Translations under genes and position numbers: made by a program | IMG/VR virus record: IMGVR_UViG_3300009127_000004 | Location: 1-62,111 of that record | DNA from: a virus | Direction: 5' to 3' (one strand) | DNA length: 62,111 nucleotides | Shown: positions 25,834 through 44,217 of the stretch, piece after piece | Numbering within the stretch: the first letter of the stretch is position 1 | Layout: every line of letters begins with the position of its first letter | Notes under the pieces: model-generated | Seen by the model: only the letters and a program-made list of their open reading frames with translations | Databases searched by the model: none | What the model was told of the DNA's origin: nothing

Positions 25834-27927
25834 TTAAAATGAAATATCATCATTCTTGGTTCCTGATTTGCAAGCTAACAAGGTAGCACTTGTGAGTCCT
25901 GCCCTACCAATATACATGAAGGAATCAAAAAATAGAGATTGTATTTTGAATAGGCGCATGGACTGTGCCATCGTTGTATCCTCATTCAACATTATCGCCT
26001 CAATATAATTGAGGATTCCCCTCCTTGTTTGCTCGGCATCTCCACTGAAGTTATTCAATGCCTTTCTTGCTCTTTCCCATTTGTGATTTCCAGAAGTTGA
26101 AGGGTCGATAAGAATCTTGACAAGATCCTCTGTTTGTCTTCCCCCTGTGCTGATCATTTGCAATGCTTCAATGGCAACTCGTGGGTCTTCGATGTCAATC
26201 ACCTCGTCCAGCATCTTTAAAGCCTTACCAGGTGATCCATTTGACATGAGTGTTATTTCTTCAAGGACGGGTCTGAGTGGTTCTAATCCTTCTGCTCCAC
26301 ATATGTCATGCAACAGGGAGAGCAGTTCCCCACGAACAAGGGGTTTCGGTTCATATTGATGGCTTCTACGTTGGATAGCTTCTCTTAATATAGGCTTTAT
26401 GATTTCCATTTCAGCCGTTGCCAATATGAAATGAACATGGGCTGGAGGTTCTTCGAGACTGGTGAGAAGGGCGTTCCATCCATCAACCGTGATCTTGTGG
26501 CAATTATGCACCATAACATTATTGGCTATATACGAATGATCCTTTTCTATTTCTAAATCATAAAATTCTATAAATCCTTTATTTCTTTCTTTATCTTTGA
26601 TAACACTTTGGAAAGATTGGTCATTACTTCCTCGTTGGTAAATCTCAACACTTTCCACCCTAATTCTTTCAGTCGATCCCCTTTCTTTTTGTCTAATGAT
26701 ATTTGTTTTTTTGTTCTGTGACCTTTCCCGTCCACTTCTACTCCCAACATTAGTTCTATGTTCGCTATATCCAATTTGTAATTTTTTGGATAACCTTTTC
26801 TCCATTTCCCCAATCCCACAGCTACTTCCATCGGCCATCCCAAAGCAGTGGCTAAAAGTATTTGTGGTTCTGTAAAATGTCCGTTCCCTCCACGTTTTCC
26901 TTTCCAAATATGAAGTGATCCATTCAACCGCTTTACCTCTAACATTTTCTTTATGTTTTTTTTGTTTTTCATTGGGTTTTTGGTCTTCATTCGAATAGAT
27001 CTTTTCAAGCGGAGACTTTTTGATTCTTCCGAATCTGAATTCCAAAATCTTTTTAAGGATGTTTTTTGCTTTTCTTTGGTTGATTGGGAATAGACTTTCT
27101 TTCTGAATTCCCCTTGGAAATTTCTCCATTTCCCAACACATTTTTGAGAGCAGAAACGATGTCCAATCGATCTTATTCCCAAAAATGTTTTCCCACAATG
27201 TTGGCATTGCATTGGATTTCGTGTTTTGCATTCCAAACAGTATAAAGCGTTCCATGATTTTGGACAAAATTCTTTTTGGCATCCTTGACAAATAATCATT
27301 GATTTTAGTATCCTTTTGTGAATTTTTGTTTAGCATTAATTCACTATCATAGCAAACCAATTCATGTTTGTCAAGAAATATAGCTTTTTTCCAACCATTG
27401 TCAGTATCAAATTCATGTTCCTTAGAACAAAACATTGAACTTCCATTAGAAAAATTCAATCTAATAACACGATCAAGAGGAACTTTGTTTATGAATTTAT
27501 TTTTTACGATATCAATTCCCTGCCTATTGAAAACAGACTCTCCCACCTCTATTTTTTCAATGGGAACCAATCCCTTTTTTACAGTTGTGATAGGTGTTCC
27601 TTTTGCAAAACATTCATCGAAAAAATACGCTTTCTTCTCCCCATGAGCAGGGGCATAATGAGAGTCGGTAATGACATCACGGATTGTATCTATACCCCTT
27701 GTGTTGGCAGTGTTGTAGGCGTAGAAATCAGCATCATGGATGCTCAATGCATTTTGGATGATACGAGCTAAGGTTGTCTTCCCCGTTCCCGGACGGCCTG
27801 TGAAAAGAAAGGTTGAGGGGATTTTGTCAGGATCCCTTGCTAAAACAAGACCCAAAGATTCTACCAGGGCATCATTTCCATAAAATTCATCAAGACTCTC
27901 CGGCCTATACGTAATGTGCAAGGGCAT
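25834..27927 (-). CDS. Clamp loader ATPase (RFC/gp44/DnaX-like) containing an intein
   Basis: 697 residues: N-extein 1-105, intein 106-475, C-extein 476-697. The extein has YRPESLDEFYGN, Walker A LFTGRPGTGKTT (42-52) and Walker B KKAYFFDE joined after splicing to CHKIT, giving the DECH box. HFILATAE (sensor 1) follows. After intein removal the protein is 327 residues, the normal size of T4 gp44-type loaders, which open the sliding clamp (32924-33952) onto primed DNA. SD AAGGAG. An extended -10 promoter lies just upstream. The last 220 residues are AAA+ lid and collar. Confidence 0.85.
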   Translation of the reverse strand: MPLHITYRPESLDEFYGNDALVESLGLVLARDPDKIPSTFLFTGRPGTGKTTLARIIQNALSIHDADFYAYNTANTRGIDTIRDVITDSHYAPAHGEKKAYFFDECFAKGTPITTVKKGLVPIEKIEVGESVFNRQGIDIVKNKFINKVPLDRVIRLNFSNGSSMFCSKEHEFDTDNGWKKAIFLDKHELVCYDSELMLNKNSQKDTKINDYLSRMPKRILSKIMERFILFGMQNTKSNAMPTLWENIFGNKIDWTSFLLSKMCWEMEKFPRGIQKESLFPINQRKAKNILKKILEFRFGRIKKSPLEKIYSNEDQKPNEKQKKHKENVRGKAVEWITSYLERKTWRERTFYRTTNTFSHCFGMADGSSCGIGEMEKRLSKKLQIGYSEHRTNVGSRSGRERSQNKKTNIIRQKERGSTERIRVESVEIYQRGSNDQSFQSVIKDKERNKGFIEFYDLEIEKDHSYIANNVMVHNCHKITVDGWNALLTSLEEPPAHVHFILATAEMEIIKPILREAIQRRSHQYEPKPLVRGELLSLLHDICGAEGLEPLRPVLEEITLMSNGSPGKALKMLDEVIDIEDPRVAIEALQMISTGGRQTEDLVKILIDPSTSGNHKWERARKALNNFSGDAEQTRRGILNYIEAIMLNEDTTMAQSMRLFKIQSLFFDSFMYIGRAGLTSATLLACKSGTKNDDISF
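26503..27612 (-). other. Intein in the clamp-loader Walker B motif (370 residues)
   Basis: It begins CFAKGTPITTVKKGLVPIEK (block A) with Cys1. Block B is around SKEHEFDTDNGW. It ends YDLEIEKDHSYIANNVMVHN (blocks F/G) and is followed by Cys+1, so all splicing residues are present. The insertion point lies within DE|CH of the ATPase. The in-frame part between B and F (about residues 200-440 of the precursor) is low-quality basic sequence because this stretch of DNA encodes an endonuclease in another frame. Confidence 0.9.
26568..27299 (-). CDS. Homing endonuclease (EDxHD/Vsr-like) nested out of frame inside the intein
   Basis: 243 residues in a frame different from the clamp loader, wholly inside the intein DNA. 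SD AAAAGGA lies about 11 nt before its ATG. N-terminal zinc knuckles CQGCQKEF...CLEC and CQHCGKTF...CSQKC come first, then a NUMOD-like basic linker (KEKQKTSLKRFW), and last a nuclease domain with YKLDIANIELMLGVEVDGKG, H, and GDRLKELGWKVLRFTNEEV, the E-D-x-H-D pattern of Vsr-type homing enzymes. It covers exactly the gap between the N- and C-terminal splicing halves. Confidence 0.85.
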   Translation of the reverse strand: MIICQGCQKEFCPKSWNALYCLECKTRNPMQCQHCGKTFLGIRSIGHRFCSQKCVGKWRNFQGEFRKKVYSQSTKEKQKTSLKRFWNSDSEESKSLRLKRSIRMKTKNPMKNKKNIKKMLEVKRLNGSLHIWKGKRGGNGHFTEPQILLATALGWPMEVAVGLGKWRKGYPKNYKLDIANIELMLGVEVDGKGHRTKKQISLDKKKGDRLKELGWKVLRFTNEEVMTNLSKVLSKIKKEIKDL

Positions 27928-28753: not shown

Positions 28754-31384
28754 TCATAATTTATATTCCTTTGTTTCATACCAACTTGCGTTTATAGGGG
28801 CTACCTCATGTTCTATCTCCAAAGGTACGTTGATCCACGGAAAAACTTTTCTGACCTCTACGGTCCCAAAATGATCGATAGTTTCTATCACCCGTTTTAA
28901 TTCTGACGGATGTGTATTATGTATCATACAGTCATGTATTTGTCCCATCAACTTACTTTTCCATGATTCTTCTTTGGCAGTTCTAACAACCTGTATAATA
29001 GTCCACAGAAGAATATGGAATGCCGTTCCCTGTGTTTGATAGTTCGTACATTGGTTATAGGTCATATAGCCTTGGAATCTGAATCCCATATGACTATCGA
29101 TGAATCCCATTGACCTGTATTCTTCGTTGATCTCGTCTTTCCATTTATTATACGTAGGAAAGCGTTCGTTCCAAAATTTGTTTTCGTACTTTTGGCAGTG
29201 GTCTACAAATGAATCAAAGCTTACAATTCGCATCCGAGTCATATGGTCTTTGACTCTGTATCCCTCCCGAATTTCAAGATCCATACAGTTTTCCCACAAT
29301 GTTTTGGCGCATTCTTTATACCATGATCCATAAAACTGTGGGAATACCCAACAATTCTTACTATAAAATCGGATCATCTTTGTAACTTCGTCCAAAGCGA
29401 GAATCCAAATGTCGGATGCTGTATCTCTATGCATGTCGGTATTGGGATCTGTTACATATTTGATAAGGGCAGGGTCTTTATGGTAGCAACAACTCGTGCC
29501 GACCTCTACTCCACTGAAATCACTCTCTACAATTTGAAATCCTTCATAAGGCATGATGCCGGATCGTGTTAGTTTCTTTGCTTCTGGATCACGTTTTGGA
29601 ATGTTTTGTTGATTCGGGTCATAACTTGAGGATCGAAAGCTGACCGGGATATTTAGGGCTATTGATGGGTGCATGACACCATTTATGGATGCTTCCAAGA
29701 ATTGATTGGGATAGGATATAACCTTACCCCATCTCCTTAGCCTTAAAACATTCCGTGTAAATTTGATGTTGATCTTTTTTAGGACTTCCTCATCGATTGA
29801 CCAGTTCCCCTTATCTGTCTCCTTTGTTGGGGTGTGTTTAAGAATGTCGAACAGGATGATTTTCAAATGAGTTGGAGATATATCTTTCTCAACCTTTAAA
29901 TTTTTTCCCGTATGCTCGTAGAAAAGAATTGCTTCCTCACTTTCCTCAAGGTCTTTTTTTACCTTCTTCATCTTTTCCACAAGATCGAGAATGGTTTTTG
30001 AATAGTATTCCGTGTCAGTAGGAATTCCGTTCATTTCCACGTCTGCGAGGGCAAGCGTACCTTCATGAAACAAGTCGTATGCCTCATAAAAGCCGGGGTT
30101 TTGCTCAAATATTGGAGTTTGACGATCAGCTAACCACAATTCATAGAGAGAATCCTTTCCCCCATACTTTAGTAATGAGTCAAGAGGACAGTCCATAATT
30201 GTATTGAACGCTTCTCCTGACTTAGCTTTCAGATAGGGATTTACAATTTGATTGTATGGAAACAATCCAAAGTTTAACATGATTTGAAAGTCAAGGGAGG
30301 TGATGCCTGATCTGTTGTCAATGATATGGGAGGCCAACATTGTATCCCACTCCCATTCTTGAACTTCAACATCGAGGATCATCTTACTCCAAATATGTTC
30401 GAACTTGATATTTTGAGCTATCTTGGAAATATTTTTGGCTTCAAGGATTTGACACCACAGGTCTTTAATTTGGTTTTGCTCATCCTGTGTGAAATGTCCT
30501 GCGTATTGATATGGAAATGACCATGCTGTTTTTTCGCCATTCGTTCCAGTGCAAGCAACACTTATGGTTGCTATTTTATGTCCTGGAATGTATGGTTTTA
30601 TTCCAGTAGTCTCATAATCGAAAACAATCTCCGATTTATACCATAAAATATGATTAAGGATATCTATGACTTCATCGAATTTGTATAGGATACGAATGTC
30701 TTCCTCTGGCAGTTCTGGAATCTTATCTCCCTTTCTTACAAAGTCAAGGGCATAGTCCAGATCCCTTTCGAAAACTGACAGAAGGTTTTTGTTATTTTCA
30801 TCACGAGAAGGATAAGAAGGATGAAACAAGGGCATTACCCATGCATTAAAACGTTTGTCGGGAATACGAAACCCTCTCCATTTTGTGATATTAAGATGCT
30901 TCCCTTCCATTTCTTCTGCATACAGGGATTTTAAAGCTACACCTCCAAACACAAATATATATTCCGGTTTTAGCTTTTCTATTGTGTCAAACACTTTGGG
31001 ACGGCAACAGGCTATTTCGTTATCGGTAGGAGTTCGATTCTTTTTCGTACCTGGAGTTTTGCCTTCCTCCCAAGGCCAGCAACTAATTGCATTGACTTTC
31101 CAGAAATCTTTGTCCAGATTGTAACCCCTCATCCTGAGCTTCTTTCTGAACCATTGTCCTATCTCTCCTTTCAACTGTTCTCCGAGTTCGTCTTCCGTTC
31201 CACCACTTGCTTCGAGAAGGATTAAAGTCTTTAGTTTTCCTTCACCTGTTACTTCCATTTTTGGGGAGAAGCATGTTCTATACAGACCACATTCAAGGCA
31301 CTTCGGCCCGTCACTTGTAGCCCGAAAGTCAACACGGGTCTGGTCTTGCATTTCTTCAAGATCAAAGAATCCGGATTGTTTCAT
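28754..31384 (-). CDS. Family A DNA polymerase fused to an N-terminal UDG-like domain
   Basis: 876 residues, SD AAGGA, ATGA overlap upstream. Residues 25-215 resemble family 4/5 uracil-DNA glycosylase: Cys29, Cys32, Cys102 and Cys125/126 fit its iron-sulfur ligands, ILLEASGGTEDELG replaces the GEAPG motif, and FHPSYPS carries the HPS motif. Next is a 3'-5' exonuclease (VFDYETTG, EWDTMLASHIID, YGGKDSLYE), then the polymerase: motif A VESDFSGVEVG, motif B RFYSKNCWVFPQFYG, motif C GQIHDCMIHN (HDC rather than HDE). It is the replicative polymerase of the phage. A similar fusion is known in the SPO1 polymerase. Confidence 0.9.
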   Translation of the reverse strand: MKQSGFFDLEEMQDQTRVDFRATSDGPKCLECGLYRTCFSPKMEVTGEGKLKTLILLEASGGTEDELGEQLKGEIGQWFRKKLRMRGYNLDKDFWKVNAISCWPWEEGKTPGTKKNRTPTDNEIACCRPKVFDTIEKLKPEYIFVFGGVALKSLYAEEMEGKHLNITKWRGFRIPDKRFNAWVMPLFHPSYPSRDENNKNLLSVFERDLDYALDFVRKGDKIPELPEEDIRILYKFDEVIDILNHILWYKSEIVFDYETTGIKPYIPGHKIATISVACTGTNGEKTAWSFPYQYAGHFTQDEQNQIKDLWCQILEAKNISKIAQNIKFEHIWSKMILDVEVQEWEWDTMLASHIIDNRSGITSLDFQIMLNFGLFPYNQIVNPYLKAKSGEAFNTIMDCPLDSLLKYGGKDSLYELWLADRQTPIFEQNPGFYEAYDLFHEGTLALADVEMNGIPTDTEYYSKTILDLVEKMKKVKKDLEESEEAILFYEHTGKNLKVEKDISPTHLKIILFDILKHTPTKETDKGNWSIDEEVLKKINIKFTRNVLRLRRWGKVISYPNQFLEASINGVMHPSIALNIPVSFRSSSYDPNQQNIPKRDPEAKKLTRSGIMPYEGFQIVESDFSGVEVGTSCCYHKDPALIKYVTDPNTDMHRDTASDIWILALDEVTKMIRFYSKNCWVFPQFYGSWYKECAKTLWENCMDLEIREGYRVKDHMTRMRIVSFDSFVDHCQKYENKFWNERFPTYNKWKDEINEEYRSMGFIDSHMGFRFQGYMTYNQCTNYQTQGTAFHILLWTIIQVVRTAKEESWKSKLMGQIHDCMIHNTHPSELKRVIETIDHFGTVEVRKVFPWINVPLEIEHEVAPINASWYETKEYKL

Positions 31385-37057: not shown

Positions 37058-37371
37058 ACCTCCTCCATCCTGCATGAGTCATTATCAATATAAAGATCGG
37101 CTCGAAACTTTCCCATAATTAGGTAATGAAACATGACTTCGTGTTCCATAAGCCATTCTAAGGTCGATTTATATCCCTCCCAAGGACGGGCGGTATAAAT
37201 GACAACATTATTGTATTTGGCAAGGTTGTTAACCTTGTCTATATTCTCTTTGATTGGAATCATTTTTGGATAGTATAAATGAAAGTCCATCCATTCTATT
37301 ATTCCTTCTGGAGCTGTGCATAGGGTTTCGTCCAGATCAACAGCTATGCTTTTTCCTTTTATTTCATCCAC
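37054..37371 (-). CDS. HAD-superfamily hydrolase, small
   Basis: 105 residues. IAVDLDETLCTAPEG (about 9-23) is HAD motif I with Asp nucleophile and acid/base, VVIYTARPWEG (about 57-67) is motif II, and LYIDNDSC (about 94) the C-terminal acids. No cap domain. Probably a nucleotide or small phosphate phosphatase. Lies in the 7-deazaguanine cluster and overlaps Gat-QueC by 8 nt, so a role with its intermediates is possible. Confidence 0.7.
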   Translation of the reverse strand: MDEIKGKSIAVDLDETLCTAPEGIIEWMDFHLYYPKMIPIKENIDKVNNLAKYNNVVIYTARPWEGYKSTLEWLMEHEVMFHYLIMGKFRADLYIDNDSCRMEEV

Positions 37372-38977
37372 TGTTTAATTCCTTCACGAATGATAATAGC
37401 TTTTCCTTTGCACTGTCGGGTAATTCAAGACGGGAGATAATATTGCTGACTGAAGCAGTTTTAACCTTCTCTGCCATCTTGGGACGTTCCCTCAGTATTC
37501 CTCCAACATCTGCAAACTTTCGTTTGTCCTCAACTCCGGCTCTATCTGCGGCAATCATGGACAGTTTGGTACTACCACAATATGTGCAAAGGATATGATG
37601 TGAGTAAAATGTTACAGGATTGTCACAACTGATTGTATGTTCAAATGGAAATATCATTGCATCCCCAAGCACCCATGCCTCTGTCTTGGTAATGTTTCGC
37701 ATGACCGGCAGGAATTTGATATACTCCCCTGTAATCGTCCCGTACTTTCGCATCATATCTATGGCCTCCGCGAATTGAAAGGAGTTGTCAGGGTAGCCTC
37801 CCGTCTCCTCTGACAACTGCGCCCAACCAGCGGCAATATATACCTCATTTACATTTTGGGATATAAGGTACGTCTCCGCACAGGCCAATAGATACGATGT
37901 GAAAATGGCATTCCTGGCTGGAACCCATGCAATTGTGGACTTGATATTATCTCCTCCGCTGTCAATCTTTATGTCTGAATCTGTAAGCATTCCATTCCCT
38001 GAGAAATGCATGAACTGGTCTGTCAAATCAAATTCAAACATCTGGATGCGGAGTGCTCCACTCAGAGTTTGTGCTGCCCACCTTTCTGCTGATTCTGCTT
38101 TTTGTCCGTATCTGAAGTGTATCATAACAGGTTCATATCCAGAATGCTTCAATATGTAAGCTGTTAATCCACTATCGATGCCTCCAGAAGCAGAAACGAA
38201 CACCCGTTTTTTCTTGGCGGGTTGAGGATTTTTGAATGTGGGATGAATGAAATTGGGGGAGTAGGTTTGCTTGTGCTGCATTCCACTGTCTAAATCGGTT
38301 TCGATGATGGTGTATCCTTCAACGTAATGATGATACCAGTTCTCCCATACGTTCATCCCGTCTTTGCGGCATCCGGTCATGCTATACAGGGCTTCTTCCA
38401 ATGCATCATTGTCCGAATGCATGAAGTATCCAACACCTTTTACATACATATGAGCAAGAGGATTGAAAGATGTTACCGCATACATCTTATTTTTGTTTCG
38501 ATCTATCATGACAAAGGCAAACGAACCACTTAGATATTCCATGGTTCGTTTCATGTCCCTACCCTGCTGTTCGTATGCAGCAAGGATAATCTCGGAGTCG
38601 ATTTCAGTAGCATAATTAAAAGATAATATACGAACGGATTCTGTCACTCCTCCATTATGAATAAGGAATTTGCCGTCACTAAAGATGGGTTGTAGCATAC
38701 TCTTATTCGTAGATTTTTCAGTTTCGGGAGTAGCTCTGCTACAGAACAAAAGGACATCCCCAACGTTCATGTATTCTTTTATCCATAATATAATTTCTTC
38801 CACTTCTATCTTTTTTGGATTTAAGATCCAATGGGAGGAAGGAATCCCATCTCCATCACATACTATGCAAGCCCCAAATCCATCTTGTCCTCTCTTACCT
38901 GCCTCTAAAATAAGAGTTTCAAGGGTTTTAAAATTTGGGATTGATTCCCTTGCCCAGAACGCAAATATTCCACACAT
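37364..38977 (-). CDS. Gat-QueC, glutamine amidotransferase/QueC fusion
   Basis: 537 residues, SD GAGGGG. Class II amidotransferase domain 1-215 starting MCGIFAFW (Cys2 nucleophile), with LFCSRATPET and LIHNGGVT. QueC-like domain from about 257: FVSASGGIDSG PP-loop (264-269), later SCDNPVTFYSHHILCTYCG for zinc. In archaea Gat-QueC makes archaeosine from preQ0, and in phage 9g it is linked with the deoxyarchaeosine-type base in DNA. Here it probably amidates the preQ0 inserted by DpdA. Confidence 0.85.
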   Translation of the reverse strand: MCGIFAFWARESIPNFKTLETLILEAGKRGQDGFGACIVCDGDGIPSSHWILNPKKIEVEEIILWIKEYMNVGDVLLFCSRATPETEKSTNKSMLQPIFSDGKFLIHNGGVTESVRILSFNYATEIDSEIILAAYEQQGRDMKRTMEYLSGSFAFVMIDRNKNKMYAVTSFNPLAHMYVKGVGYFMHSDNDALEEALYSMTGCRKDGMNVWENWYHHYVEGYTIIETDLDSGMQHKQTYSPNFIHPTFKNPQPAKKKRVFVSASGGIDSGLTAYILKHSGYEPVMIHFRYGQKAESAERWAAQTLSGALRIQMFEFDLTDQFMHFSGNGMLTDSDIKIDSGGDNIKSTIAWVPARNAIFTSYLLACAETYLISQNVNEVYIAAGWAQLSEETGGYPDNSFQFAEAIDMMRKYGTITGEYIKFLPVMRNITKTEAWVLGDAMIFPFEHTISCDNPVTFYSHHILCTYCGSTKLSMIAADRAGVEDKRKFADVGGILRERPKMAEKVKTASVSNIISRLELPDSAKEKLLSFVKELNSG

Positions 38978-38980
38978 AAT

Positions 38981-39181
38981 TCACCCCTCCAACAATCTTT
39001 TAAAATTAGTACACGATATAGGATCTGGGATTCCTTTAAGAATTAAATCTGGAAGTGTGGGGTGATCGTCTGTGCCAATAATTTCATACACCTTATTCTT
39101 TTCAAGGCATGACATTAAAGGTAAAAATCCGCATTGCTGAACGAAATCCCCTTTCTTCATCAAATTATATTCATTACTCAT
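38981..39181 (-). CDS. Small hypothetical protein in the modification cluster
   Basis: 66 residues from the ATG at 39181 (SD GAGAGG), overlapping the radical SAM stop. LMKKGDFVQQCGFLPLMSCL...VYEIIGTDDHP resembles small beta-barrel phage proteins. Sits between radical SAM and Gat-QueC, and function is unknown. Confidence 0.55.
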   Translation of the reverse strand: MSNEYNLMKKGDFVQQCGFLPLMSCLEKNKVYEIIGTDDHPTLPDLILKGIPDPISCTNFKRLLEG

Positions 39182-40206
39182 TTTATTATCCTCTCTGACC
39201 ATTTTTGTTTAGGAATATGTTTTCCGGCATGTGACGAAAAGATTTTCTTTCCAAACTTTGGTTCTCTTTTCTTCCAATAATCATACATCCATGGATATGA
39301 CCATCCGCATCTTGGGCATTGCATGGCATCGTCAAACACACTAAGCCTCCACTTCTCCCATTTGTCAGGCAAATCGAATATCGACATTTGGGAAGTGAGT
39401 TCTCCCTTTCTGTATCCACAAACACGCAGAGAACCATCCGCGTCGATGGTAGGACCTCCATATGGATTGCCTAAACAATGCCAATTCATACTAATAAGGT
39501 GTGAATAGTCTCCAAAAAACATTTCCCGATTTTGAATGAGATTATTCCTTGAGCTTATGGCTTTGTGGATTTCATATTTGAGTGCGGGGTGATCGGATTC
39601 TCTAAAAAGCAGATCTTCAATTTTGTATCCTTCAGGAAAAAAGTCAAATCCTCCGCCTTTGTTCCAATGAATGAAATTTATTCCCACATTGATACCGAGT
39701 TTAGATAGTTCCTTCACCGTATCCGAAACAAATTCATAATTTCCTTTATGAACTGTTATTGTGCCTTGGCAGTCTATGTGTGGATAGTTCTTTCTGGTAA
39801 ACATTAAAGCTTTCCATCCATTATAAGACTTCTGCTCGTCATGGGACATCATATCCCATTTCAAATACTTCAAGTGTGAAATGGGCCAATCAATTCCGCA
39901 TGACAGGTTATCTAACCCTGCATTGAAATTATTATAATACCATTTTTCAAATAGTTCAGGGGGAGCTGAGGTATATAAGGCATAGGGCACCTTATTCGCC
40001 TTGATGATATATCTTAAATCGTTTCCCAATAACCATGTTTCATTTCCAAGGATCAGATTGAAGTCAACACCCATTTTATGTAGGATATCAAAAACCTCTA
40101 TCCATTGTTTTGCATTGAGTTCTGGATTTTCTAAGTTGGAATCTCGGAGTCGGCAGTAGTCACATTTCCTTGGGCATCGTCTTGTCAGGTAAGTTAATGA
40201 ATTCAT
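39178..40206 (-). CDS. Radical SAM / SPASM-type enzyme, substrate unknown
   Basis: 342 residues, ATGA overlap with the SDR gene, SD GGGGGA. RRCPRKCDYCRLRD (about 9-22) is the CxxxCxxC [4Fe-4S] site. FNLILGNETWLLG and GTITVHKGNYEF match the SAM-binding barrel. The C-terminus has CLGNPYGG, RVCGYRKG and QCPRCGWSYPW, cysteines arranged like an auxiliary cluster (SPASM/twitch). Radical chemistry on a base, sugar or peptide is expected. Its place between FolE/SDR and Gat-QueC suggests action on the 7-deazaguanine product. Confidence 0.75.
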   Translation of the reverse strand: MNSLTYLTRRCPRKCDYCRLRDSNLENPELNAKQWIEVFDILHKMGVDFNLILGNETWLLGNDLRYIIKANKVPYALYTSAPPELFEKWYYNNFNAGLDNLSCGIDWPISHLKYLKWDMMSHDEQKSYNGWKALMFTRKNYPHIDCQGTITVHKGNYEFVSDTVKELSKLGINVGINFIHWNKGGGFDFFPEGYKIEDLLFRESDHPALKYEIHKAISSRNNLIQNREMFFGDYSHLISMNWHCLGNPYGGPTIDADGSLRVCGYRKGELTSQMSIFDLPDKWEKWRLSVFDDAMQCPRCGWSYPWMYDYWKKREPKFGKKIFSSHAGKHIPKQKWSERIIK

Positions 40207-40862
40207 GCCGTTAATCCCCCATCAACAACGATGTTTGCCCCTGTCAGAGAAGGTGAAGTAAGGATATAAAAAACTATGTTGGCGATTTCTTTGGGTTGAA
40301 TCTCCCTTTTGAGGGGAACCAATTCTCTTAGATGTTTGGGAAGTCTTCCAGGAACAAGGTTTGTGTTTGTAAATCCGGGGCTGATGCAGTTCACTCTGAT
40401 TCTTTTTGGAGCGTAAAGTTTGGCGAAGGATTTTGTCATGTGGATCATGGCGGCTTTTGCAGCTCCATACATGGGCTCCTCCGGGCTTGCTTCTATTCCA
40501 GAAGTTGAAGCAATGTTAATAATATTTCCCCCGTTTTTTATTCGGAGATTTTTGGCGATCATGAAAGGGGAAAGAAAGTTCAGCTTTAGAAGCTCCAGCT
40601 CAATAAAATTTTCATTGAATCGCAAAGCTCCGGCATTGTTCACCAGAAGATCAACCTTTCTTCTTCCTATCCTTTTATGGATACGTCTGACAGCAGTGTA
40701 ATAATTCCTGCGTTTGGAAAGGTCAACATCGGACTTTGAAATACCGACTATTGACCACATACCCATTGGAGAGAATACTCCCTCTTTTTTTAATAGGTCG
40801 GCTATTGCCTTCCCAATACCAGAAGAATGACCTGTTATAACGGCAATGTTTTCCCTGAGCAT
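40203..40862 (-). CDS. Short-chain dehydrogenase/reductase
   Basis: 219 residues, SD AGGGGA. AVITGHSSGIGKAIA (7-21) is the TGxxxGxG cofactor site, LLVNNAGAL (about 72) NNAG, INIASTSG with the catalytic Ser (about 117), YGAAKAAMIHM the YxxxK (about 131-135), and the tail GANIVVDGGLTA is classical. Uses NAD(P)H. Overlaps the radical SAM gene by 4 nt and sits 3 nt before FolE's stop side, so the two are probably cotranscribed with the preQ0 genes. Substrate unknown. Confidence 0.85.
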   Translation of the reverse strand: MLRENIAVITGHSSGIGKAIADLLKKEGVFSPMGMWSIVGISKSDVDLSKRRNYYTAVRRIHKRIGRRKVDLLVNNAGALRFNENFIELELLKLNFLSPFMIAKNLRIKNGGNIINIASTSGIEASPEEPMYGAAKAAMIHMTKSFAKLYAPKRIRVNCISPGFTNTNLVPGRLPKHLRELVPLKREIQPKEIANIVFYILTSPSLTGANIVVDGGLTA

Positions 40863-40865
40863 TTT

Positions 40866-41438
40866 TTATCCCCTTTGTGATAATTCGATAAGCTGTAATG
40901 CTTCCATTTTTACCTCTTGCTCATAGAATATCCCATTTATGGCGGAGGTTGTCATTCCGGATCTATTACTTTGTCTTACTCCACGGCATTGCATGCAACC
41001 ATGGGAAGCTCTCATTACAATCATAGCTCCTTGGGGTTTTAATTCTTTAACAAAAGCATTTAATACTTCCCTACCGAGATTTTCTTGTATCTGAGGACGT
41101 CTTGCATAATGGTGAATTAGTCTGGCACATTTTGAGGCACCGATCAGTTTATCTTGTGGGATGTATAATACCCAAGCAAGACCAATGAAAGGTAAGAAGT
41201 GATGGGAACATGTGGAAGTAAAGTCGATGTTATCCAACATTACTATTTGATTGTCTTTTGAAGAATTGGGAAATGATTTGAATCCATCAAACTTTTTCCC
41301 AACCCTTGAAAAGAGTTCTTTACAATACATTTTAGAAACTCTTTTCGGAGTATCTTTGAGATTAGGGTCGTTGATATCGAGTCCCAAACCCTTTGTGATT
41401 ATCTCCGAAAAGAGTTTTTCAATGAGATCCTTGTCCAT
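40866..41438 (-). CDS. folE: GTP cyclohydrolase I
   Basis: 190 residues from the ATG at 41438; a TTG two codons upstream is possible. TPKRVSKMY near residue 30, TSTCSHHFLPF (about 74-84) with zinc Cys/His, and HGCMQCRGVRQ (about 145-155) with the other zinc Cys are the FolE hallmarks. It makes dihydroneopterin triphosphate from GTP, the first step to preQ0. Followed by the SDR gene with 3 nt between. Confidence 0.9.
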   Translation of the reverse strand: MDKDLIEKLFSEIITKGLGLDINDPNLKDTPKRVSKMYCKELFSRVGKKFDGFKSFPNSSKDNQIVMLDNIDFTSTCSHHFLPFIGLAWVLYIPQDKLIGASKCARLIHHYARRPQIQENLGREVLNAFVKELKPQGAMIVMRASHGCMQCRGVRQSNRSGMTTSAINGIFYEQEVKMEALQLIELSQRG

Positions 41439-41445
41439 TGTCAAT

Positions 41446-42039
41446 CTACTTCTTGTCCGATGTCGGGGGATTCACCGCAGTGATGATGGCGGTGGCCGCT
41501 TCCTTTTCCCCTTGCTCATTGAAGACCCATCCCCACTTCTTTTTGCAGTAGCCGATGTGTCCTTTGAGTTGGGCCAGGTTCCATTCCTTTACCTGGAGGC
41601 CTTTTTCCTTGGTGAAGGCATTGGCCCCGGCAACGATGTCCACCAGTTTGTTCCCTTCGACCAACATGGCGTTGACTTTTTGGGTGGTGGTTTTGGGATC
41701 GGCCACGGTCTTTTTCAATTCGTCCAGGGACTTGCCGAGAGAAGATCCGATTTTCAATCCCTTTGGCCGTCCCTGCCCACCCGATTTTTTGGCATTGGGA
41801 TCGGGGGCCGGGTCCTTGGCCTCGTCCGACAGATTGTCATTGTAGAACTGAATGCAGATTTCCGGAATTTCTGCTTCCGCTTCGTGCATTTTGACCAGGT
41901 TGGCCTCAAAGGTCTCGATCATGACCGTTTTGGCGACGCCGACAGTCCGCATGGGTGGCTCAATTTTACATCCATCATTCAATGCCACAATAGCAGCCTT
42001 CAATTCTCCAAAAACAATGTTTGGTGCGGTTTTAGCCAT
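41446..42039 (-). CDS. Hypothetical basic/AT-hook-like protein, probably highly expressed
   Basis: 197 residues, strong SD AAGGAGG and its own extended -10 promoter at 42105-42113. A linker rich in Pro, Asp, Lys contains KKSGGQGRPKGLKIG (about 85-99), similar to an AT-hook (GRP core). A tryptophan-containing C-terminal helical part follows (LAQLKGHIGYCKKKWGW). GC-rich compared with its neighbours. May be a DNA-binding protein. Inserted between FolE and QueE but no enzyme motif is seen. Confidence 0.6.
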   Translation of the reverse strand: MAKTAPNIVFGELKAAIVALNDGCKIEPPMRTVGVAKTVMIETFEANLVKMHEAEAEIPEICIQFYNDNLSDEAKDPAPDPNAKKSGGQGRPKGLKIGSSLGKSLDELKKTVADPKTTTQKVNAMLVEGNKLVDIVAGANAFTKEKGLQVKEWNLAQLKGHIGYCKKKWGWVFNEQGEKEAATAIITAVNPPTSDKK

Positions 42040-42104
42040 TTGCGTTCCTCCTTTTCGTTGTGCGTTAATTTGTGGGACTGTACCCTGTCTAAACGTTCAA
42101 TAGT

Positions 42105-42113
42105 ACTATAGCA
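42105..42113 (-). promoter_or_regulatory. Extended -10 promoter, minus strand
   Basis: TGC-TATAGT preceded by GGCTAACCCAAAAGTA. A very similar string, GGTTAGCAAAAAGTTATGC before TACTAT, occurs at 54111-54134, so this may be a phage promoter class. It drives 41446-42039 and probably FolE onward. Confidence 0.5.
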
Positions 42114-42192
42114 TACTTTTGGGTTAGCCGCCCAGGAAAAATGAAAATTTTTTCACATTTTTTCGAAACTTGCATTTTTCCTCAAGAACGAT

Positions 42193-43800
42193 CTATTTGA
42201 CTTCTTTCAGATCGATAAGTTTATGGAGCTGTGTGTTAATAACCACCTCGTGGAGATTGTGTTTATTCAGCTCTTTTAGGATGTCAGGAACGCTGATATC
42301 CGCAAATCCCGTATTTACCGGAGATATTGCCATCCTCGCCGCAAGTCCCATCCCATTAAACATTTTTATTTTATTGATGGCAAAATCAAGGTCATTATTC
42401 CCATCTACTACAAATTTAACGAAATCCTTATAGTTTAGTTTCCTGACGAAATTTAACCTGCCTATTACATAATGAGCCATTCCAGAACTTGGACATTTAT
42501 AATCTACCACCCAATTGGCAGCTAATGTGGGAGGAATCCATGTTCCATTTGTTTCAATTGTGACCACAATATTTTGTCCCGCAAGTTTTGAAACAAGATG
42601 TGCGACCTCATCGATTTGAAGGAGAGGCTCACCTCCTGTTATAGTCACTTTGGCCGTTCCAAGTTGCATGATTTGATCAAAGACCTTTTTTACAGGGGTT
42701 TCGGTTCCTGAATCAGGAGATTGTGCGTACTTGGTGTCGCAGTTATGCACCCACATATAATCTACAAGATAAGAATTATATGGAAAGCATGATATGTTCC
42801 ACACTTTTAGTGGTTTTGGGCGGGTTGAAGGCGGATAATCATTTCTATCTATATGTTTTATTTCTTCTACTTTATACCCGTTTAATGCTGTCAGTCTGTT
42901 TCTACTTTTGACGGAAAGGTTCTTTCCGTCTTTTCTTTCTCCCCTCCAAAAACTATATCCTCTTTTATGAATCTTGTTATGACAAGGATAACAAGAAATA
43001 AGGAGGTTCTCCCAATCATCATTTTTCTTATCTGCGTCTTTATGATGGACACAACATTTTATATTGGTCTTCCCACACTCTTTACATGTATTTATTATTC
43101 CTTTCTTGCACAGATTTTTTAGGTAATTATAATTTGTATTTATTCCCCCTCTCCAATTCGGATTTTTATCACCCATCATTTTAAGAGATAATTTCTTTTT
43201 TGTTTCCTTATACTTCCTCTCAGATAAAGTACTAAAGGGATGTAAATAAATGCCTTGTTCCTGTTTTTTCTTAATGCTTGATGATATTTTTATACCTATT
43301 TTTTTATAATCTTTTCCCTTCCCTGATTTCCGTGCCACTCTGGGATCTTTCATTGGGTTTCTTTCGCCCATTTTTGAGAATGATGCTTTTTGATTTGGGG
43401 ATGAATGAAGGATCATATCTCCTATTTTTAAATTTTTGGTTTTAATCATTCCCTTAGTTGTGAAAAACGGATGCTCCTCCGTCACAAAGTAGGACACACC
43501 ATTTATTTTCAACCTAAACCAAGAATTGACCTCTCTCGTAATTACCTCTTTTACTTCTGTTTCAACAAGGTTTTTGTTTTCATCAAAAGTCATTAACCAA
43601 TCCCCAACTTTCATATCCATCAATTTTTTATTGGGAACTCTTGACGTTATTATTCTTGGAATTTTTCTTCCATTTATAATTCCAAAACAATAGGCGCATT
43701 TGATGTTACATCCCGCAAGTCTTACAAATACAGTTTGCGTTCCTTGTCCATACCAATTAACTTCCCCATCTATCGATTTGAAAATGCTGAAAACGTTCAT
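42193..43800 (-). CDS. queE: QueE radical SAM enzyme (CDG synthase) containing an intein
   Basis: 535 residues: N-extein 1-37, intein 38-353, C-extein 354-535. After splicing CNIKCAY joins CDTKYA, restoring the CxxxCxxC cluster motif (Cys31, Cys35 and the +1 Cys). TITGGEPLLQ (about residue 385) is the SAM-binding GGEP, VVTIETNGT follows. Mature length 219 residues, normal for QueE. It converts carboxy-tetrahydropterin from QueD to 7-carboxy-7-deazaguanine. SD AGGAGG. Confidence 0.9.
   Translation of the reverse strand: MNVFSIFKSIDGEVNWYGQGTQTVFVRLAGCNIKCAYCFGIINGRKIPRIITSRVPNKKLMDMKVGDWLMTFDENKNLVETEVKEVITREVNSWFRLKINGVSYFVTEEHPFFTTKGMIKTKNLKIGDMILHSSPNQKASFSKMGERNPMKDPRVARKSGKGKDYKKIGIKISSSIKKKQEQGIYLHPFSTLSERKYKETKKKLSLKMMGDKNPNWRGGINTNYNYLKNLCKKGIINTCKECGKTNIKCCVHHKDADKKNDDWENLLISCYPCHNKIHKRGYSFWRGERKDGKNLSVKSRNRLTALNGYKVEEIKHIDRNDYPPSTRPKPLKVWNISCFPYNSYLVDYMWVHNCDTKYAQSPDSGTETPVKKVFDQIMQLGTAKVTITGGEPLLQIDEVAHLVSKLAGQNIVVTIETNGTWIPPTLAANWVVDYKCPSSGMAHYVIGRLNFVRKLNYKDFVKFVVDGNNDLDFAINKIKMFNGMGLAARMAISPVNTGFADISVPDILKELNKHNLHEVVINTQLHKLIDLKEVK
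42742..43689 (-). other. Intein in QueE with in-frame HNH endonuclease (316 residues)
   Basis: Begins CFGIINGRKIPRIITSRVPN with Cys1, block B is VTEEHPFFTT, and it ends CFPYNSYLVDYMWVHN followed by Cys+1. Between them are NUMOD3-type repeats (MGERNPMKDP, MGDKNPNWRGG) and an HNH domain: CKECGKTNIKCCVHHKD, then NLLISCYPCHNKIHKR. Both splicing and endonuclease parts look complete, so it may still be mobile. Confidence 0.9.
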
Positions 43801-43812
43801 TCCTGGTCCTCC

Positions 43813-44217
43813 TTAAAAATATTGATCTTCTCTTCTCCACTCGGCGTAACAGGTTTCGGTTTCCCACAGACGAACACGGGAGACACTTCTGAAACTTGAA
43901 AAGGGCTTTGTTCCTCCTTCTTTCGGTTCTTCCAGTTTTTCCCGAAGGATTGAAACTATATACAAAATCATATGCTCGGCGGTGGGGTTACCGAAGGTGT
44001 CATTTAACAGTTCGTGATCAAATTTTTCCACCACAGGTCGCACTATTTCTTTCAGGTCAGCAAAATCCATCACCATACCAGAAACAGTAGAAATCGTACC
44101 TTTTATTTCGACTTCCAGTTTATAACTATGCCCATGGAGGTTTTGGCATTTCCCCACATGTAAAGGCAGCCGGTGGGCAGCTTCAAATGTAAACCTCTTA
44201 CATATTCTTATCAGCAT
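43813..44217 (-). CDS. queD: QueD, 6-carboxy-tetrahydropterin synthase
   Basis: 134 residues, SD AAAGGAGG. His15, His28 and His30 (AAHRLPLH, NLHGHSY) bind zinc and Cys24 is the catalytic Cys. VMDFADLK (about 49) and FDHELLND and PTAEHMI complete the PTPS/QueD pattern. Second step of preQ0 synthesis. QueE follows with 12 nt between. Confidence 0.9.
   Translation of the reverse strand: MLIRICKRFTFEAAHRLPLHVGKCQNLHGHSYKLEVEIKGTISTVSGMVMDFADLKEIVRPVVEKFDHELLNDTFGNPTAEHMILYIVSILREKLEEPKEGGTKPFSSFRSVSRVRLWETETCYAEWRREDQYF

Follow-up and report, generated by a model that had tools for sequence, protein, structure and literature searches.

A phage clamp-loader intein with a putative homing endonuclease gene overlapping it in the +1 frame

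Introduction

Nucleases of the EDxHD type are said, in work by Dassa from 2009 that PMC6801210 and PMC12350094 cite, to accompany fractured genes with split inteins, where they occur as free-standing genes.

Large inteins such as PI-SceI have Hint halves that flank a nested homing endonuclease domain and are inserted exactly at a conserved host motif (PMC6801210). An endonuclease in another frame is described in PMC11855218 (Genes 2025) for the ShiLan domain, a mobile insertion in phage methylases that contains an out-of-frame HNH gene and no host-frame stop; no splicing domain was found there, and the protein presumably retains the insertion. The same paper cites, for overlapping frames, a preprint on inteins of 'non-canonical architecture' in actinobacteriophages (bioRxiv 10.1101/2025.01.02.630785), which may therefore describe something similar. 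PMC12613952 reports another out-of-frame HNH in a methylase, and PMC12350094 describes phage group II introns that contain EDxHD/Vsr-like endonucleases. PMC3229294 adds nothing further on reading frames.

Here we examine an intein-bearing clamp-loader gene in a viral sequence of 62,111 nucleotides (IMG/VR record IMGVR_UViG_3300009127_000004), the whole of which is called the window below. An earlier reading of the same DNA, referred to as the original prediction, had proposed that a homing endonuclease is encoded out of frame inside the intein. We interpret the locus as a mobile intein that has its homing endonuclease encoded by an overlapping +1-frame gene, and give this reading a probability of roughly 0.84.

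Materials and Methods

Loci were obtained by scanning viral and genome collections, the nuclease and the clamp loader serving as queries, and from 8 of 40 matched phage records. Two nuclease-based scans contributed the best 80 of 308 and the best 80 of 429 relatives, and a separate IntC-based scan covered the best 80 of 143; since similarity to the nuclease or the intein, within these capped lists, decided which loci were included, all locus frequencies given below are conditional on it. Near-copies were removed at 97% (115 reduced to 93) and at 95% (80 reduced to 54), and merging at 95% DNA identity left 143 distinct loci (90 + 53), the four near-copies in this final merge being L015, L204, L073 and L096. 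Earlier sets were used for the synonymous shuffles and Shine-Dalgarno counts (n = 93), the codon bias (88 of the 93 loci, in which the motif was located) and the synonymous-constraint profile (n = 71).

Results

The clamp-loader gene and its intein

Both predicted open reading frames lie on the minus strand exactly where they had been placed, one of 697 codons with 0 stops (the host frame) and one of 243 codons nested within it (Table 1). The host frame matches phrog_5846, a family of phage clamp loaders (E 2.3e-43), and dnaX_nterm (1.1e-36, under the curated cut-off). It also matches the Pfam family Intein_splicing (PF14890, 4.2e-9), which was recognised in 58 of 62 intein segments in the family scan. 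An intein-free homologue of 327 amino acids from the viral collection (L010) is exactly 370 residues shorter and joins FFDE directly to CHKI, giving intein boundaries identical to those of the original prediction.

C1 and the terminal Asn are invariant in the 62 intein segments, and the block B His and Cys +1 are present in at least 90% of them. A structural model of the intein (mean pLDDT 67.5), confident in the Hint core and at about 45-54 in the linker, returned 41 PDB matches at E <=0.001, all of them inteins or related Hint domains, the best being the gp41-1 intein (3.6e-7). Exact insertion, splicing residues and the predicted Hint fold thus assign the element by sequence to the class 1 Hint inteins.

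The stretch between the splicing blocks had been described as weak sequence in the host frame. This holds for host residues 206-413 approximately (AlphaFold pLDDT about 45-54) and fails for the last 30 or so nested codons, which coincide with a confidently modelled intein beta-strand. The host-frame linker also gave a weak match to phrog_21797 (host residues 353-458, E 6.5e-4), perhaps another phage ORF called in the host frame.

Table 1. Features of the clamp-loader locus (positions in the window)
Feature	Position	Strand	Basis or remark
Phage DnaX-like clamp loader with intein, single open frame	25834..27927	minus	697 codons/697 aa, stop-free
N-extein, residues 1-105, last residues = Walker B ...FFDE	27613..27927	minus	comparison with L010
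Intein, 370 codons, C106 to N475	26503..27612	minus	missing from L010
Hint splicing domain, N-terminal half: C1, block B His	27343..27612	minus	pLDDT mostly >=94
Host-frame linker, no stops, disordered	26689..27312	minus	pLDDT ~45-54; dN/dS >1 in related pairs
Hint domain, C-terminal half: RVESVE strand, FYDLEI block, ...VMVHN	26503..26682	minus	conserved blocks and model
C-extein, 222 aa, first residue Cys +1 (CHKI)	25837..26502	minus	comparison with L010
Zinc-finger/DUF559 nuclease gene, 243 aa, +1 relative to host frame	26568..27299	minus	ORF and Pfam
Nested zinc finger C32-C35-C50-C54	27138..27206	minus	four Cys invariant or >=90% in 71 sequences
Nested catalytic domain, residues 138-243, Vsr/I-Bth0305I-like predicted fold; D177, E188, D190, H194, D203	26571..26888	minus	
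Dual-coding segment, nested residues 213-243: nuclease core and intein strand on shared DNA	26571..26663	minus	
Dual-code core: nested GWKVLRF = host RVESVE	26640..26660	minus	
Shine-Dalgarno-like AGGA, weak, 11 nt before nested ATG	27311..27314	minus	

Distribution of the arrangement

The original prediction dealt with a single case, and the arrangement is family-wide instead: each of the 143 distinct loci has the nuclease in +1 relative to the frame that bears the intein. Pattern matching identified the two intein ends in 134 of these, the remainder including contig ends, pattern misses and two broken loci. Carriers comprise Vibrio, Pseudomonas and Corynebacterium phages, among them the cultivated Corynebacterium phage phi673 (L011; host C. 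glutamicum ATCC 13032), as well as contigs titled Planctomycetota, Verrucomicrobia, Chloroflexi, Nitrospirales, Elusimicrobia and others, some of which may be prophage or virus. A Pfam search of 58 host ORFs detected ResIII in 28, SNF2 in 18 and DNA_pol3_delta2 in 11, families that can co-occur.

Insertion sites were counted in the 130 loci where just one N-terminal junction came into question, located by a pattern without a presupposed D or E. The intein follows DE or EE in 111 loci and stands directly after DExH in 14, so that 125 of the 130 are at Walker B or DExH motifs; the remaining 5 are at most 3 residues after a DE. The C-extein starts with CH in 103 of 141 loci. The tree places the helicase-hosted loci L003, L006, L053, L080 and L097, as judged by eye, among clamp-loader-hosted rows, partly on open forks; its host-family labels are crude, with 'other' assigned to 30 of 95 rows, mostly clamp loaders with LEDTP.

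No in-frame relative of the nested nuclease inside an intein was present among the matches listed in three nuclease-based viral scans, one genome scan and one IntC-based viral scan. In the last of these (79 of the best 80 loci, L020 being already counted) the nuclease or a remnant of it is in the +1 frame in 75 of 79, including the decayed L232 and L241, and in frame in 0 of 79. The four loci without a clear nuclease are L264, L289, which ends with its contig, and L305 and L306, which look like unrelated inteins. Rarer designs other than +1 may exist beyond the loci examined. Stops flagged within the HMM span of L279, L286, L294 and L298 sit by eye upstream of the likely nested start.

The nested nuclease

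The nested frame of the window matches DUF559 (PF04480) with an E value of 3.4e-12 and 46.7 bits, against a curated cut-off of 20.6. All 71 nested proteins scanned matched both DUF559 (at E <=0.001) and MTES_1575 (PF18741). The original prediction had named selection on the nested frame as a check, and such selection is apparent from 17 invariant columns in the alignment of these 71 sequences, one being the start Met. The invariant columns include D177, E188, D190, H194 and D203, which are candidates for the EDxHD signature residues.

Structure prediction, which had also been proposed as a check on the 243-residue protein, gave a model with a mean pLDDT of 92.9 and a pTM of 0.56. Residues 138-243 of the model superpose on 3HRL (Z 13.0, 1.2 A over 84), I-Bth0305I (3R3P; Z 11.4, 2.4 A over 88) and Vsr (Z 10.1, 2.0 A over 96), and the profile match to I-Bth0305I has an E value of 0.0035. 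Foldseek by itself did not reach E <=0.001 with any structure, I-Bth0305I coming closest at 2.8e-3. The zinc-finger part was scarcely covered by these comparisons. The nested protein is thus predicted to have a Vsr-like restriction-endonuclease fold.

A nuclease of this kind could serve some purpose other than homing, for instance attack on competing phages or on the host; DUF559 is a broad family, and the protein is assigned by sequence and predicted fold. Its location in an intein gene with both ends recognised in most loci, the resemblance of the predicted fold to Vsr and I-Bth0305I, and the precise empty site in L010 all argue against such a role, which we regard as improbable.

Translation start of the nested gene

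The nested gene had been credited with its own Shine-Dalgarno sequence. The one in the window is weak (Table 1), and the claim applies better to about half of the relatives: a strong Shine-Dalgarno sequence precedes the nested ATG in 48 of 93 loci and none does in 45, the window member being among the latter. Good Shine-Dalgarno sequences accompany 51 of 188 ATGs at the nested 5' end, compared with 56 of 4,810 other ATGs in host ORFs (93 loci), an enrichment of about 23-fold. Because SD-preceded ATGs are enriched at this end, internal initiation is likely for the family; it is less sure for the window member.

Programmed +1 frameshifting from the intein frame would yield an IntN-nuclease fusion without a separate internal start. 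This would accord with a nested frame that is open upstream of the chosen start in many loci (median 11 codons, up to 130, in 93 loci). In the window, however, merely 10 nested-frame codons precede the ATG, and the enrichment just described also speaks for genuine starts, making frameshifting quite unlikely in our view.

Stop avoidance in the host frame

In the +1 arrangement a host-frame stop is possible only where a T-ending nuclease codon precedes a codon starting with AA, AG or GA. Within the window, T occupies the wobble position in 0 of 84 such stop-prone contexts and in 46 of 158 others (p 3.9e-10); over the 143 distinct loci the figures are 2 of 9,158 and 5,357 of 20,466 (26%). Each T-ending codon has a C-ending synonym, so this avoidance is silent for the nuclease. 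The near absence of T from stop-prone wobble positions demonstrates that the openness of the host frame is selected, through silent choice of nuclease wobble bases.

Synonymous shuffles lead to the same result. When the nested protein and its codon usage were kept (n = 20,000), shuffled versions of the window gene had a mean of 11.4 host-frame stops and a minimum of 2, against 0 observed. The first batch of 93 loci had 1 host-frame stop where 913 were expected. A comparison group of 30 loci had 76 stops against 106 expected; it comprised 28 short DUF559 loci (L118-L145) and two truncated nested loci (L008, L092), all of them loci with a nuclease hit set aside from the first batch, and is therefore conservative. 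The short loci, which lack the zinc-finger part, have a stop in the corresponding frame in 25 of 28 cases.

We argue from the genetic code that +1 is the natural frame for such an overlap, given that the alternative frame forces TGA wherever Met precedes an A-starting codon. The uniform +1 frame across loci may also reflect a single origin.

Homologues with a clamp-loader frame broken by stops were expected if the gene were fractured, that is, if two split-intein halves and a free-standing nuclease between them were made as separate polypeptides. The reported occurrence of EDxHD-type nucleases beside split-intein fractured genes and the gp41-1 intein as best PDB match of the model would fit such a gene, as would L056 and L152, with one TAA and one TGA respectively. 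These are the only 2 of the 143 loci with a host-frame stop across the nuclease, possibly through decay, sequence error or a first step to a split gene. With the frame open in the other 141 and T selected against in stop-prone contexts, a two-piece gene is rejected for these 141 loci and as a general account is very improbable. An open host frame due to chance or codon composition, with either the long ORF or the nested gene an annotation artefact, is hardly credible and was rejected on the shuffles and the avoidance of T: alternative frames of AT-rich coding DNA can contain rather few stops, and among the 28 short DUF559 loci 3 are likewise stop-free, but none of the 20,000 shuffles was, the 93 loci have a single stop for the 913 expected, and the third frame of the 143 genes contains 2 to 33 stops apiece.

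A dual-coding 3' end

The C-terminal half of the intein begins with a strand that shares its DNA with the last 30 or so nuclease codons. The nested residues G214-W-K-V-L-R-F are written GGG TGG AAA GTG TTG AGA TTT, which read one base earlier gives R-V-E-S-V-E, the strand preceding the intein FYDLEI block. The same DNA is predicted to form strands in both models (residues 326-334 of the intein model, with RVESVE, and 216-221 of the nuclease model, KVLRFT).

Codon usage in the motif is biased accordingly in the 88 of 93 loci where it was located: the Gly is GGG in 82% against 30% for other Gly, the Arg is AGR in 75% against 42% elsewhere, and the Leu is TTG or CTG in 87% against 42% elsewhere. 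The 28 short DUF559 loci have unrelated residues, such as LGLDRPALHQ, in this place. In the synonymous-constraint profile of 71 sequences, residue 213 and those after it supply 23 columns, 11 of them with z above 4.5 (maximum 17.8), whereas only 3 of the 95 usable columns before it (57, 126, 205) pass that value; relatedness among the sequences is disregarded in these z values, which are a relative measure only, with the remaining columns as the control. The dual-coding bias is concentrated at nested residues 213-241 approximately.

The nuclease gene had been proposed to have invaded the intein linker without breaking its frame. The unbroken frame stands in 141 of 143 loci, a simple linker insertion does not, because the 3' end of the nuclease co-codes with the splicing domain, and the direction of entry stays a proposal.

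Selection on the parts and decay

Estimates of dN/dS in both frames, another check that had been suggested, were made on 11 related pairs, some sharing members, by simple counts that ignore the interaction of the frames. Values were 0.04-0.33 for the nuclease in 10 of the 11 pairs, the eleventh being saturated, which indicates purifying selection, and 0.02-0.70 for the N-terminal half of the intein. The host-frame IntC part gave 0.08-0.93, with <=0.33 in 9 of 11 pairs. The host-frame linker within the overlap gave 1.1-2.6, as expected from third-position change in the nuclease. Judged from these values, the linker is kept open while its amino acids are apparently free, and conservation extends to the nuclease and to each half of the splicing domain. 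No amino-acid constraint on the host-frame linker was found in the 11 pairs or in the synonymous profile before residue 213.

The IntC-segment scan also recovered three mini-inteins in clamp loaders that have lost the nuclease although their host frame is intact. Remnants of it correspond to residues 188-244 in L232, with a stop at the Trp codon, to residues 184-244 in L241, with the catalytic Glu replaced, and to residues 217-243 only in L264. All three retain the dual-coded end, as the dual-coding model predicts.

Other genes of the phage

A second intein is present in a radical-SAM protein at 42193-43800 (minus; Pfam Fer4_12, Radical_SAM and PT-HINT), resembling QueE, and ends in ...WVHN followed by CDTK. 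Its middle looks by eye like an in-frame HNH endonuclease, so the phage seems to carry both the usual in-frame design and the +1 design. The gene belongs to a likely deazaguanine DNA-modification cluster (37364-44217, minus), together with QueC with glutamine amidotransferase domains (37364-38977), a Radical_SAM gene (39178-40206) and a 134-aa ORF (43813-44217, minus) that we take to be QueD-like. A single 876-aa ORF at 28754-31384 (minus) fuses a Uracil-DNA-glycosylase-superfamily domain to a family A DNA polymerase.

Discussion

Under the proposed mechanism, translation of the long frame would give a precursor that splices itself to a normal clamp loader, and ribosomes starting at the internal ATG would produce the free nuclease. 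The latter would cut intein-free Walker B sites, and repair would copy the whole element in. The host-frame middle of the intein would be a tolerated disordered linker. Support for homing is confined to two lines of sequence comparison, namely the empty-site relative and the spread among host genes.

With less assurance, though we still lean towards it, the elements may be viewed as an old and widespread intein class of phages and many bacterial phyla, in which a +1 endonuclease is locked to the splicing domain by a dual code of 20-30 codons. Such elements would invade ATPases from unrelated families at their Walker B or DExH motifs, and a dead nuclease would leave a readable 3' fossil in a mini-intein.

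The locus offers a natural gene overlap with selection resolved per frame, where one frame stays open, the other carries an enzyme and a short piece satisfies both, and is a simple system for work on the origin and decay of overlapping genes. The distribution suggests a homing element that moves between clamp loaders and helicases via one conserved ATPase motif. The finding also bears on intein annotation, the nested nuclease being unannotated in the 8 GenBank phage regions inspected, out of 40 matched records.

Comparison with known systems

The original prediction knew of no standard description of this arrangement. For an intein with an out-of-frame endonuclease none was found in a search of titles and the beginnings of abstracts, most subscription papers and bioRxiv lying outside it; an out-of-frame endonuclease in a phage insertion is already published, without an intein, for ShiLan (PMC11855218). 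There is a real chance that part of the arrangement is already described.

The locus shares with PI-SceI-type inteins the Hint halves around an endonuclease and the exact insertion at a conserved motif. In those inteins the endonuclease is a domain of the intein polypeptide, whereas here it would be a separate protein, its gene lying in the +1 frame in 143 of 143 loci. EDxHD/Vsr-type homing endonucleases such as I-Bth0305I (3R3P) resemble the nested protein in their catalytic fold, which is a predicted one here, and in their association with inteins; they are reportedly free-standing, in contrast to the present genes, which lie across a host gene that stays unbroken and which encode DUF559 and zinc fingers. 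The ShiLan domain is likewise a stop-free insertion hiding an endonuclease in another frame. It has an HNH enzyme and no splicing domain, whereas the window intein combines a nuclease of DUF559/Vsr-like predicted fold with a complete Hint domain and a dual-coding 3' end.
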